A stretch of DNA of 64,000 nucleotides, taken from assembly GCA_030613025.1 (NCBI GenBank), contig JAUWMT010000004.1, positions 1 through 64,000 on the forward strand, given 5' to 3'. Position numbers and translations under genes: made by a program. The notes beneath the pieces are model-generated. The model did no database searches and was not told where the DNA came from. It saw only the letters and a program-made list of their open reading frames with translations. Origin of the DNA: Candidatus Cloacimonadota bacterium (GTDB taxonomy: Bacteria > Cloacimonadota > Cloacimonadia > JGIOTU-2). This document shows, in pieces, positions 4,415 through 21,127 of the stretch (positions within the stretch are counted from its first letter, which is position 1; the number at the start of each line of letters is the position of its first letter).

Positions 4415-5225
4415 TTTATCCTCTTCATACTGTAATATTCTATAAATTTAAATACGCTACTCCCTCAACTCCAGCTTCTATCGATATTTCTGCGCATTTC
4501 ATTTCATTATTCAATATTCATATCAACATACCTCACTATCCCGGGATATGAATAGAGAGGTTTTCATAAAATAAACTTATTTTTTTCCTTACAATTGGTT
4601 CTAGAGATGTCAATATTTAATTTCAGATATTCTACATCTCTTTGTTTATAAGCAAGTCTTCCTTCGCTATAAACCATTATCCTGTATGCTTTTGCACACA
4701 TCCTTGAATTATATTTCTTCATAATATATATTCCAAAAATACTATCTCTACTTATATATCATTAAAAGTGCCAAATTGTGACGCCATCAGACGAAAAAAA
4801 TAAAATTTTCTTTATCTTTGCGAAAGTTTTAAACCTTTCGCAAAGTTTTATTGCTTGCACAAAGGTTAAGGTCATAGTATCGAATAACACCTGATACCCT
4901 TACAATAACTCACATAATATAAATCTTTCATCTTCATTTTACACCTTTCAAAACTTTCTCTACATATATATATCATAAAAATACCCATTTTGTGACGACA
5001 CCACTCAAAAAAGTTTAAATTATTTCTTTTTTTGGAAGTTTAGTTAAGATTTGTTTTTCTTTGCGTCCTCCAAGTGGTAGCAGTTAAATTTGCTTTGCAT
5101 TTAACGTCCTAAAGCTTTGTGAACGAGATTATTATAGTGCTTTGAGTCTCAGAAAGCTATATTCAATCTTATGATATGACGACTGAGACTTCTATTCCAA
5201 ATACATTAATAACAAAGAATTTGAA
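4415..5225. other. 811-bp intergenic region with two similar promoter-like segments
   Basis: No gene was found on either strand. Two related segments lie at about 4755-4792 and 4966-5008. Read on the minus strand both follow the pattern GTCACAA..TGG...TTTT.ATGATATATA..GTAGAGA, pointing toward the outer-membrane gene that starts at 4414. They may be tandem promoters or a duplicated regulatory segment. The region also holds a palindromic repeat (4816-4845) and a 'tttctttgcg'-type low-complexity stretch near 5050. Confidence 0.45.
4816..4845. repeat. Palindromic repeat, TTGCGAA family
   Basis: Perfect 11-bp arms CTTTGCGAAAG and CTTTCGCAAAG with an 8-nt loop. Related palindromes occur at 21128-21153, 34041-34076 and 58611-58688, all built on TTGCGAA...TTCGCAA. 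Confidence 0.75.
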
Positions 5226-6650: not shown

Positions 6651-6722
6651 CTCGTTACCAAGCCCCTGCTTGGTAACGGAAGACGATAAGACATTGCGTT
6701 CCCAAAGTGGGCTTTGGGAACG
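6651..6722. repeat. Pair of 26-bp palindromes (CGTTnCCAA family)
   Basis: Copy 1 (6654-6679) is CGTTACCAAGC-CCCT-GCTTGGTAACG. Copy 2 (6697-6722) is CGTTCCCAAAG-TGGG-CTTTGGGAACG. Each has 11-bp perfect arms and a 4-nt loop. The same ordered pair recurs at 21002-21090 and a single copy sits inside the BtuG-like gene (6931-6956). Confidence 0.85.
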
Positions 6723-6807: not shown

Positions 6808-8121
6808 TTATTTCAAATAGATCATTTTATGAAATGCCGTTTCTACATTTTCAGAAACTATCTTGTAAAGATATACACCACCGGAAACTATCCTGCCATT
6901 CTCATCTTTCCCATCCCAGACTGCTTGAAGCGTTCCCAAACTGGGGTTTGGGAACGAGGTAATGATTTTGGTAAGTTGTCCCTTTATGTTGAAAATATTA
7001 ATCTCTGTGTTCTCTGCCTGCCACGGCGTAGCGCAGTGAAGCCGGGTGGTTAGATTGAAGTATATTGTGGTCGAGTTTGAGAATGGATTGGGATAATTGT
7101 AGGCAATTACACTTTCATAATGAGGAATATCCACAGCAATTCCGGGATAGTAAAATCCAGCATCTTGCGGATTGACACCGACCGTAAGTGTGTGAAGAAG
7201 CTCCTCGTTTTCAGAATAGATATATACTTTCCCATTATTGATCCAGTCAACAGAATCACCGAGATAGAGTATGCCGTTCTCATCGAAGTGAATGAAACTC
7301 CCGCCGCTTGCCCATAGGTCTGTTGAGGAGTGAATAATTGAAAGATCAATCGAATTATACGCCATGAACCCGAGTCCGAAACCATCACAAAGATAGGCAG
7401 TGCCGTTTGGATGGATAGCAATTTTAGTTGGAGAGCCGCCAATTTCCATGGTTGTGATCACTTCATGGGTTGTAGTATTTATTATGTAAATTTTTCCATA
7501 AACAGCAGGATTACCGTAGCCGTAATTTCCGGTACAGACCACATGCAATCTTCCCATTGCATCGACCGCACCAAACTGCGGATTGTTCCCGACAGGAATT
7601 TGGTCAAGTACAGAATCATTATTCACATCTATTACTGTTACGCTTCCTGTGGGCGAACCATAAGAGGAATTCATAACGAATAATTTATCATCAAATAAAA
7701 CCATCCCCTCTGGAATAGAACCAACAGAAAGCGAGTTTACAACGATTTTATTTATCAGATCGATCACATAAACAGTATTAGTAAAAAGACCGGATACATA
7801 CGCTTTATCACCGCCCGGATGAAGCGCCATCCAGTAAGGATTTGAGCCATTCGGACACTGAATGTGATCAAGTGTAGTTTCAGTTTCCAGATCGATGATC
7901 TGTATGTTGTGCACACCGGAATTTACAACGTATGCCATGCTGTTCTGTATGACAATTTGATTAGCATACTGCCCGAGCTGGAGTATGTGATTTTCTAAAA
8001 TTTCCGTGACCGTATCATAATGGGAGAGTGTTTCGTCATTGCTGTTCACAATATACACGTCATGACCATAAAGGGGTGAAAATAAGATGAGCAAGCTAAT
8101 AAGAAGCAATAATTTTTTCAT
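6808..8121 (-). CDS. BtuG-like beta-propeller with FlgD/type IX-like sorting tail
   Basis: The ORF track starts at 8214, but the ATG at 8121 has an AAAGGA ribosome site and begins a signal peptide (MKKLLLLISLLILF), so I use it (437 aa). Residues about 25-320 are YVTN/YncE-type propeller blades (YVVNSG, HPGGDKAYVSG, VPEGxx/NPQ turns). The C-terminus (about 345-437) is a FlgD/type IX-like sorting domain: NYPNPFSNSTTI, then VWDGKDENGR and SGGVYLYKI. It follows the TonB receptor by 10 nt. In Bacteroides, BtuG is a surface beta-propeller that captures cobalamin beside BtuB; by position and fold this is the likely counterpart, anchored by the sorting tail rather than as a lipoprotein. Two insertions in the sorting domain are encoded by repeat elements. 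Confidence 0.8.
   Translation of the reverse strand: MKKLLLLISLLILFSPLYGHDVYIVNSNDETLSHYDTVTEILENHILQLGQYANQIVIQNSMAYVVNSGVHNIQIIDLETETTLDHIQCPNGSNPYWMALHPGGDKAYVSGLFTNTVYVIDLINKIVVNSLSVGSIPEGMVLFDDKLFVMNSSYGSPTGSVTVIDVNNDSVLDQIPVGNNPQFGAVDAMGRLHVVCTGNYGYGNPAVYGKIYIINTTTHEVITTMEIGGSPTKIAIHPNGTAYLCDGFGLGFMAYNSIDLSIIHSSTDLWASGGSFIHFDENGILYLGDSVDWINNGKVYIYSENEELLHTLTVGVNPQDAGFYYPGIAVDIPHYESVIAYNYPNPFSNSTTIYFNLTTRLHCATPWQAENTEINIFNIKGQLTKIITSFPNPSLGTLQAVWDGKDENGRIVSGGVYLYKIVSENVETAFHKMIYLK
6931..6956. repeat. 26-bp palindrome inside the BtuG-like coding sequence
   Basis: CGTTCCCAAAC-TGGG-GTTTGGGAACG, perfect 11-bp arms. Read in frame it encodes most of the SFPNPSLGTLQ segment between two strands of the sorting domain. 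Same family as 6651-6722 and 21002-21090. Confidence 0.85.
7014..7050. repeat. GGCGTAGCG repeat inside the BtuG-like coding sequence
   Basis: The core GGCGTAGCGCAGTGAAG resembles GGCGTAGCGTAGCGAAG at about 13513-13530 in the intergenic region after nifU. In frame on the minus strand it encodes the unusual stretch TRLHCATPWQAE in the first loop of the sorting domain. Confidence 0.6.
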
Positions 8122-8131
8122 TGTGTCCTTT

Positions 8132-10261
8132 CTAAAGAAAATGCGTTGAGAATGATGCTTCGAAATTTCTTCCTGATGATGGAACATTTCTTGAAGTTTC
8201 ATATTGTACATCAAAGATATTATTTATCCGAAAAGTGATCGAAGTTTTGATTTTTTTGGCTATTGGAGATGTTAAATGCAAGCCCGCATCATAAGTGGTA
8301 TAACCATCAATTACAACTGTATTGCTGAAATTATCATATTGTTTTCCTACATTCAGCACCGATGCAAAGAGTTTAATATTCATAAATGAGTATGAAACCT
8401 TTCCCTGCACTTTATGGAGAGGTTTATTTGTAAGAAATTTATTATAATGGTCTGCCGAAGTGGTCTTGTTTATCGGATAATTCTTTGAGCCAGACAGTTC
8501 AATTTCGAGATCGCTGATTATGTGCCAGTTCAATGATCCTGAAAAGCCGTAAAGTTCTGCATCAGCAAGATTTTCGGGTTTCCATACTCCAAGCGCGCTT
8601 CTGTACCAATATATTAGATTTTCAATTCGATTAAAATATGCTTCCCCGGTAAGAGCGAATGTGCCAATTTTCCATTTTAGATTGCTGCTTATCCCATAAG
8701 AACGTTCGGGGTCAAGGTCCGGGTTTCCCTGCACGCGTGAGTCACCTTTCCAAAAGAGAGAACTGAATTCCGGCATCGCAAAAGAGTTTCCTCCTGAAAT
8801 GCTCATCTGAATAGTATCAGATTTTGCTGGATATTCAAGAGTAAGATGAGATGACAGATAGACATCCTCGTCGATAAAATAGTCAGCACGAAGAGAAGGA
8901 ATGAGCGAAAATTCCTGCTGTCCAAAAGAAAACGGAATTAAGGTTTCGTTTGATAAATAAAGGAAAGTTCTATTTTTTTGAGAGATCGAATTTTCCGGGT
9001 GTAGATGGTCGTCATATTTGTAGTTTTCATATCGCAAGCCACAATTAGAGATAGAAGACAGACTAGAACCTTTTGTATTCAGTTTTGCCCGCGCTTCGAA
9101 GACAGAAGTTGTATTTGCAGAATTATAGGCATAAAAGGGGTTTTCGGTATTATTTTCATAATTACTTTTATTAAATTGATAAAAGAGAGAACTTGTGAAA
9201 TCGTTTTTCCCAAACGGAATGTGCAATTCATTTTTTATATGTACTCTATCTGCTCTTGCCCGTGCATTTTCAAACCACATATAGTCGGTGGATTGCCCGG
9301 GAATGCCCTTCTCGGCTTTATAATAAAGAAATGAAAATTCAGAATATGTGTTCTTTTTCAGGGTTATTCGAGATTGTAGAGATAAAGAACCCTCCGTAAT
9401 GTCATTATTCGAACGTGTGACCGTTTTTTCTTCCTGTTCATTATAATAACTGAAATTGTTTTTTGCTGAACGTCCATAAATATTGCATAAAAAAGAAGAA
9501 TTTCCCAAAGCAAAATTATTTTGATAATTTAGTGAATAATTTGCCCAACTTCCGGAATGAAAGGTGAGTTCATGATTCTGAAGATGTGAGCGAGAATTTT
9601 TCAGTACTATGTTCACAATGCCGCCAATTGCCGATTCTCCAGATGTGCTACCTGCATTATGGGAGATAACTTCCACATGATCGATCATGTTTATGGGAAT
9701 TGAAGCAACTGTGTTTCCCGTTGAATTGTCAGCTTTCATGCCGTCTATAAGATAGACACAATGACGTGGTTCATAAGCATAAAGCTGAAGTTGTTTCTCG
9801 CCGGTTGCACTTTCTTTTAGAAGTAAACCCGGATGAGATGAAACAAATTCCTGTGTGTAATTTTGTCCGAGATTATCTGGAGTTAGTATTTCAACATCTG
9901 CAGAGGATAATTTGAGCGAGGTTCCTTCTTCTGTGATTACTTTCAGTCCCTGTATTCTGATGGGGTCAATTGAAAGAAAAATAGTATTGTCTTTTGGGTC
10001 GTTAACAGTAAATTCTTTTGTCTCATAACCTTGCGATGATATAATTATTCTGCATGGAATTTCGCTGCTGCGCAACAAGAACCAGCCATTATTATCTGAA
10101 AGTGTAATATGATCGGCATGAGCAGTTTTTACTAACGCATACTGTATCGGCTTGCCTGTTTTTCCGCTGAGGACGCGCCCCTGAATATCTGCCAAAACAA
10201 GCGCAGGTAGTATGAAAAGAATAGAAATGATAATAAATAATTTACTCATCTTGGCTTTCAT
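8132..10261 (-). CDS. btuB: TonB-dependent outer-membrane receptor, BtuB-like
   Basis: 709 aa. A signal peptide (about 1-24) is followed by a carboxypeptidase-regulatory-like domain (about 25-105), a TonB plug (about 115-230, with IDHVEVISHNAGST and GGIVNIV) and a 22-strand-type barrel to the C-terminus. TonB receptors pull bound ligands across the outer membrane. Cobalamin is inferred because the gene sits between btuD and a BtuG-like propeller, near a cobalamin riboswitch and btuFC. It overlaps btuD by 20 nt if MKAK is the start, or 8 nt if MSKL (10249) is; neither has a strong ribosome site. Confidence 0.85.
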   Translation of the reverse strand: MKAKMSKLFIIISILFILPALVLADIQGRVLSGKTGKPIQYALVKTAHADHITLSDNNGWFLLRSSEIPCRIIISSQGYETKEFTVNDPKDNTIFLSIDPIRIQGLKVITEEGTSLKLSSADVEILTPDNLGQNYTQEFVSSHPGLLLKESATGEKQLQLYAYEPRHCVYLIDGMKADNSTGNTVASIPINMIDHVEVISHNAGSTSGESAIGGIVNIVLKNSRSHLQNHELTFHSGSWANYSLNYQNNFALGNSSFLCNIYGRSAKNNFSYYNEQEEKTVTRSNNDITEGSLSLQSRITLKKNTYSEFSFLYYKAEKGIPGQSTDYMWFENARARADRVHIKNELHIPFGKNDFTSSLFYQFNKSNYENNTENPFYAYNSANTTSVFEARAKLNTKGSSLSSISNCGLRYENYKYDDHLHPENSISQKNRTFLYLSNETLIPFSFGQQEFSLIPSLRADYFIDEDVYLSSHLTLEYPAKSDTIQMSISGGNSFAMPEFSSLFWKGDSRVQGNPDLDPERSYGISSNLKWKIGTFALTGEAYFNRIENLIYWYRSALGVWKPENLADAELYGFSGSLNWHIISDLEIELSGSKNYPINKTTSADHYNKFLTNKPLHKVQGKVSYSFMNIKLFASVLNVGKQYDNFSNTVVIDGYTTYDAGLHLTSPIAKKIKTSITFRINNIFDVQYETSRNVPSSGRNFEASFSTHFL

Positions 10262-13341: not shown

Positions 13342-13808
13342 CGAAACCTAACTCGGATAACCCCCAGTTAAATAGTGAAAAATGATTTAACGGGGTGAAC
13401 CGAAACCAAAAAGAATTCACCATCCGTCTTCATTTCATTACGCCGAGACAGGCGAAATAATACGAATGGAAAAGTTGATGATAAATTTTGACCGTGTGAA
13501 TCCTCCCTGTCAAGGCGTAGCGTAGCGAAGACTGATTCCAATAAAGGTTTCACAGAGACTGATGAAAATATTTTACCAAAATATAACAGAATCATAGAAT
13601 TAAGTGCCTAAATTTTTATCTAAGTCAAGCTTAGAAAAAGAGCCACTCTCCGAGTGTGTATATTTTCTTTTTTTCCTTTGCGCTTTTTATGTCTTTGTTT
13701 CTCTGCGCCTTTGCGTGACCTTTTTTGTTTTCACGACAACTTGTTGGTAAATTTTATTAGTTAAGCAACTAATGCTCATCTACACTCTATAAATATATAA
13801 AGAACGAT
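13342..13808. other. 467-bp intergenic region with repeat fragments
   Basis: Lies between convergent nifU and btuC. It contains a GGCGTAGCGTAGCGAAG element (13506-13534) related to 7014-7050, an AGGCGAAATAA-type motif and a 'ctttgcgc...ctctgcgcctttgcgtg' stretch near 13676-13716. The 75-codon minus ORF at 13368-13595 looks like a repeat shadow. No gene supported. Confidence 0.6.
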
Positions 13809-21001: not shown

Positions 21002-21090
21002 CGTTACCAAGCCCCTGCTTGGTAACGCAATTTGTTGTGAAACCCTGTTTCACATTTTGTAATTATGTTCCCAAAGAGGGCTTTGGGAAC
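21002..21090. repeat. Palindrome cluster, CGTTnCCAA family
   Basis: CGTTACCAAGC-CCCT-GCTTGGTAACG (21002-21027), a hairpin TGTGAAA-CCCTG-TTTCACA (about 21036-21054) and GTTCCCAAAG-AGGG-CTTTGGGAAC (21067-21090). The outer two appear in the same order as at 6651-6722. Confidence 0.85.
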
Positions 21091-21127
21091 AAGAATCGGT
21101 AATGGTCGGTGTTTCATGATTCAATCA

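Follow-up and report, generated by a model that had tools for sequence, protein, structure and literature searches.

The stretch of DNA analysed here, which we call the window, comprises 64,000 nucleotides from a Candidatus Cloacimonadota genome, and two different repeat elements were found within one minus-strand open reading frame at 6808-8214. The likely start at 8121 gives a protein of 437 aa (468 aa at full extension of the reading frame) and places the gene at 6808..8121 (-). Orthologues were identified in six Cloacimonadota genomes, with 87, 89, 88, 76, 68 and 51% identity. The predicted product is a secreted beta-propeller protein, with a signal peptide beginning MKKLLLLISLLILF, YVTN/YNCE-like beta-propeller repeats and a terminal FlgD-Ig / Por secretion sorting domain. 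This T9SS / FlgD-Ig C-terminal sorting domain (CTD), at 6820..7095 (-), was recognised by PF13860 (33.5 bits, cut-off 27), by PF18962 (20.4 bits alone, and 30.8 with same-frame neighbours in the genome search), weakly by TIGR04183, and by the strands of an AlphaFold2 model. A profile search of the source genome, a 2.83 Mb draft that is 98% complete, returned 141 Por_Secre_tail matches, and a PorU sortase is also present (NF033707, 532 bits against a cut-off of 420, at C36:19009). The removal of the CTD by PorU is established for Bacteroidota, and the sorting domain is probably cleaved off after export in this organism as well. All genomes compared in this study are draft metagenome assemblies.

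The first repeat in the CTD is the 50-bp GGCGTAGCG element (GGCG element; 7002..7051, minus strand; AACCACCCGGCTTCACTGCGCTACGCCGTGGCAGGCAGAGAACACAGAGA), which is read as TTRLHCATPWQAENTE in the loop beta2-beta3. The second is a REP-like hairpin (6931..6956, minus strand; CGTTCCCAAACCCCAGTTTGGGAACG), read as SFPNPSLGT in the loop beta4-beta5 and assigned from pattern counts, orthologues, fold and the AlphaFold2 model. In this model the GGCG peptide lies between the strands 351-357 and 372-378, in a region of very low confidence (<50), and the palindrome peptide lies between the strands 383-387 and 397-402. An earlier note on this DNA had proposed that both repeats are translated in frame in a single protein, that both fall in loops between beta strands and that both families also occur outside genes, and our analysis bears out the three proposals. 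The second repeat had also been described as a perfect 26-bp palindrome, a slight overstatement, since a 4-nt centre separates its two perfect 11-bp arms.

The window contains six hairpins with 11-bp arms, five of which belong to the REP-like family, against 0 or 1 in Markov simulations of 64 kb. Besides the copy in the CTD, a non-coding pair is formed by the copies at 6653..6678 (TTACC variant) and 6697..6722, and an intergenic pair in the same arrangement is formed by those at 21002..21027 (TTACC variant) and 21066..21091, all of them unstranded. Another non-coding inverted repeat with 11-bp arms, at 4816-4845 (CTTTGCGAAAGTTTTAAACCTTTCGCAAAG), is outside the family. In the whole genome the family pattern was detected at about 45 distinct sites and the backwards pattern at none, and the fold of the hairpin has a z-score of -7.8. 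Copies of the hairpin were located on both sides of a RAYT (Y1 transposase) gene at C60:24129-24407 (32.9 bits, cut-off 23), and a RAYT-like gene of the relative G109 (L329) is likewise bracketed by hairpins. No GTAG or CGTC tag was seen at the foot of the hairpins, which at the listed sites reads CTC/GAG or GC. The palindrome in the CTD is a REP-like element, probably spread by a RAYT transposase, the tie between the CTD copies and RAYT being one of sequence. A second RAYT gene (L018:1237-1981; G000:C35) is bracketed by a different hairpin, TTTACCAATTTAGGAATTGGTAAA. Two other open reading frames, one of 317 aa with an N-terminal hairpin (L025) and one of 203 aa with two hairpins (L330), were judged to be non-coding extensions.

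The GGCG element has about 30 genomic copies. Its fold is no better than that of shuffled sequences and a strong hairpin was not found, and a hairpin role for this element was rejected. Two non-coding copies are present in the window, a diverged one at 13421..13447 (-) and another at 13511..13537 (+). The copies in long open reading frames (5/30, plus one CTD remnant) are all in the loop beta2-beta3, in one orientation and one frame (TTRLxxxTPWQA), with P about 2e-5 for five of 30 copies in this loop when relatedness is ignored, and the remaining copies inspected in the source genome are non-coding. The remnant is a CTD of 62 aa (L063:1501-1532; G000:C24:84286) that bears the element in the usual loop and frame. 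It would suit an origin of the repeats in the CTDs themselves, with the intergenic copies being decayed CTD genes, but the other intergenic copies are without CTD flanks in the context inspected and the hairpins flank RAYT genes, so that we regard this origin as very improbable. In the CTD at G000:C2:16435, a GGCG-like sequence is nested in frame within a GGATTNN heptanucleotide array in the loop beta4-beta5.

Comparison of the orthologues revealed gain or loss of both repeats. The window gene, L130 and L132 carry the GGCG element, L134 carries a variant of it, and L131 and L133 lack it. The hairpin is found in the same orientation in the window gene, L130, L131, L132 and L134, and in the opposite orientation in L133, where it keeps the same codon frame (TTC CCA AAT AGG GGT TTA GGA ACA). 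The most distant orthologue, L135, is without the hairpin and its loop, KITNYKLKI, resembles the A+T-rich repeat type. The alignment of homologues, which the earlier note had recommended, showed that the residues accompany the repeat DNA and that homologues without repeat DNA are also without the residues; the same residues in the absence of a DNA repeat were therefore not encountered. The palindrome of the window gene shows 0-3 differences in 27 bases from those of L130, L131, L132 and L134, against 36-70% of the four-fold sites of the passenger, and this low divergence, which concerns few sites, suggests that the hairpin is refreshed by recombination or constrained at the DNA level.

To the extent that the earlier note dealt with a single gene, the target is broader, being one domain family with about 140 paralogues and with several repeat types in its loops. 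Loop and strand DNA from the 141 CTDs, together with reversed controls, was matched against 729 kb of the same genome, about a quarter of it, in which the CTDs had been masked. Matches that beat every reversed control were obtained for nine beta2-beta3 loops and 12 beta4-beta5 loops, and numbered 2, 1 and 0 in the three strand segments. Other repeats detected in the loops are 7-bp arrays of the GGATTNN and AAAATTN types and CCCGTCTC-type repeats, and the CTDs of other Cloacimonadota display further repeat-like peptides at the two loop positions. Given how short the loops are, and the low complexity of those rich in A+T, such resemblance could be thought to arise by chance, or from convergent peptides without repeat DNA. 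The reversed controls, the hairpin counts (about 45 sites against none for the reversed pattern) and the Markov simulations led us to reject this explanation, to which we give almost no credence, and in-frame repeat peptides in CTD loops are well supported.

The two loops differ in how the repeats are accommodated. The beta4-beta5 loop has 13-14 aa in 103 of the 141 CTDs and 12-14 aa where it is coded by a repeat, with one nested exception of 20 aa, whereas beta2-beta3 loops with the GGCG element have 17-29 aa versus 8-11. Thus, the repeats in beta4-beta5 replace the loop rather than lengthen it, and the GGCG element lengthens beta2-beta3. Because the beta4-beta5 length is unchanged, simple insertion alone does not explain the palindrome there and was rejected; from the insertion proposed earlier the in-frame repeat stands, but the added residues do not, the loop having its normal length of 13-14 aa.

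A frame-blind DNA scan of four relatives yielded 51 hairpin sites, nine of them in beta4-beta5 loops of CTDs. All nine are read as FPN..LG, six in one orientation and three in the other, and they are partly non-independent, given that two are in orthologues of the window gene and that paralogues may share descent. None of the other sites inspected, all but four, is inside a recognisable gene of these relatives, and searching with the hairpin's two other frames recovered no such CTD. The search for further genic copies and for a frame preference, also recommended in the earlier note, gave CTD-loop copies with a single frame for each element in the source genome and the four relatives, although common ancestry or conversion, and not repeated selection, may account for part of this uniformity. 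Outside the CTDs, the hairpin is present in frame in the interdomain linker of an AddA-like nuclease-helicase (L095:2004-2030; G000:C89:13664), where it is read in a different frame (VPKQGVGNE), and four congeners whose sequences can be aligned across this position lack the whole segment. In the closest relative, G115 (L302), a GGCG-like sequence lies inside this linker hairpin with the frame kept. The linker copy, like the intragenic REPs known in other bacteria (PMC3733652), is what would be expected from selfish elements that enter any gene in frame and persist wherever its product can bear them, in the manner of Rickettsia palindromic elements (RPEs). We find such insertion unlikely as a general account, as every other copy found within a recognisable gene of the source genome and the four relatives is in a CTD loop and the beta4-beta5 loop has kept its length.

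Analysis of the CTD paralogues indicates that their loops are mosaic. The window gene (C24:6820) and C31:316 match at 94% in the beta2-beta3 loop and at 62% in the next strand, C16:30440 and C16:1552 match at 100% in the beta4-beta5 loop and at 50% in the next strand, and loop types are combined differently among closely similar CTDs. Orthologous passengers with 82-86% identity bear different CTD halves, and towards its C-terminal end the window CTD almost matches that of L131 (one 30-codon block reaches 99%), with 74-96% elsewhere in the gene. These comparisons suggest that loops move between CTD paralogues by recombination. In a NIOZ-UU1 metagenome genome (L150:3-4282), two adjacent genes have more than 1300 identical passenger bases and different CTD loops, which reflects either a recent CTD exchange or an assembly artefact. 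The combinatorial mosaics, the L150 pair and the small number of changes in the palindrome relative to the passenger would all agree with a cassette site in the CTD loops, where repeat-coded segments would be exchanged among about 140 sorting domains with the REP hairpins and other repeats serving as recombination handles, so that the secretion signal would vary quickly and perhaps to advantage. We judge this quite improbable, and the same holds for its stricter form, in which the handles would serve an adaptive diversification of the loops: neither an enzyme nor selection for diversity came to light in its favour, and fast turnover in tolerant loops would look alike.

A further possibility is that each repeat was captured once, long ago, and was spread by CTD duplication or conversion alone, so that the hot spot would reflect the CTD copy number. 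The GGCG copies in CTDs do share orientation, frame and similar upstream strands, and CTDs recombine freely. However, both hairpin orientations occur at one codon position, as a comparison of L133 with the other orthologues already shows, several unrelated repeat families are found in the same loops, and the hairpin is also in the unrelated nuclease-helicase, again in frame but in another frame, and we consider single ancient captures possible but rather doubtful. The explanation that we favour, and believe to be likely, is that dispersed repeats were captured in frame in two permissive CTD loops and then redistributed among paralogues. In the T9SS sorting domain, intergenic dispersed repeats would enter the loops beta2-beta3 and beta4-beta5. 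The palindrome would probably have arrived via a RAYT transposase, and the GGCG element, the 7-bp arrays and the CCCGTCTC-type repeats would have entered as well. A copy would persist only if it preserves the reading frame and forms a compatible loop, since secretion depends on the strands beta3-beta7 and on the very end of the C-terminus, and the loops would be tolerated because they are variable and because the PorU sortase probably cleaves the domain off. In P. gingivalis CTDs the C-terminus and the loop beta3-beta4 are essential and the remaining loops vary greatly (PMC11285876), which fits change being tolerated in beta2-beta3 and beta4-beta5 and not elsewhere. Once in a CTD, a repeat-coded loop could pass between the paralogous CTDs, about 140 in number, through recombination over short tracts, with gene conversion as the putative shuffler.

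The parallel with RPEs drawn in the earlier note holds in part. As in Rickettsia, a palindromic repeat is in frame in functional genes and has intergenic copies, but here it is a RAYT-associated REP-like hairpin, it is accompanied by a GGCG element without a strong hairpin, and the genic copies lie mostly in two loops of one domain family. The elements are also shorter (26-50 bp), their sequences are probably different and the host is of another phylum; the beta4-beta5 loop is replaced and several unrelated repeat families share the site. The repeats work like RPEs, but the RPE pattern of lengthening many unrelated proteins was not observed. Cyanobacterial heptanucleotide short tandem repeats (STRR) resemble the 7-bp repeats that are read as protein in several CTD loops, the difference being that here the genic copies are in sorting-domain loops. 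With the REP/RAYT (TnpA-REP) REPtrons the hairpin shares its short length, many intergenic copies, an arrangement in pairs and an adjacent Y1 transposase gene, and with the intragenic REPs of Di Nocera et al. 2013, which in other bacteria are known from repair genes, it shares few genic copies that include DNA-repair genes (PMC3733652). In contrast to those systems, the GTAG/CGTC foot tag was not seen and the genic copies concentrate in T9SS sorting domains. Published T9SS CTDs have the same seven-strand Ig-like domain with variable loops, among them the extended beta2-beta3 appendage of the Tannerella mirolase CTD, but their loop variation was not traced to dispersed repeats (PMC11285876). 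In the open-access literature nothing relevant was found on repeats in T9SS sorting domains.

The Cloacimonadota CTDs offer a clear example, open to counting, of repeats from non-coding DNA that have turned into protein, clustered at sites where a domain tolerates them, and the secretion tag seems able to host this change without harm. With about 140 CTDs in a genome and a large number of related species, the choice of frame, the tolerance and the turnover become directly measurable. In addition, two loops of the T9SS signal are probably able to accept foreign peptides, and in Cloacimonadota the annotation of sorting domains and the masking of repeats get in each other's way.

We also detected two minor features among the CTDs. 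The CTD at G000:C82:30343 has an in-frame TAG stop in its beta4-beta5 region. The CTDs of L097 (G000:C90:13405) and L121 (G000:C49:293) share their first half, with 86% over the preceding stretch, and are wholly different from strand beta5 onward, which looks like an exchange of the second half.
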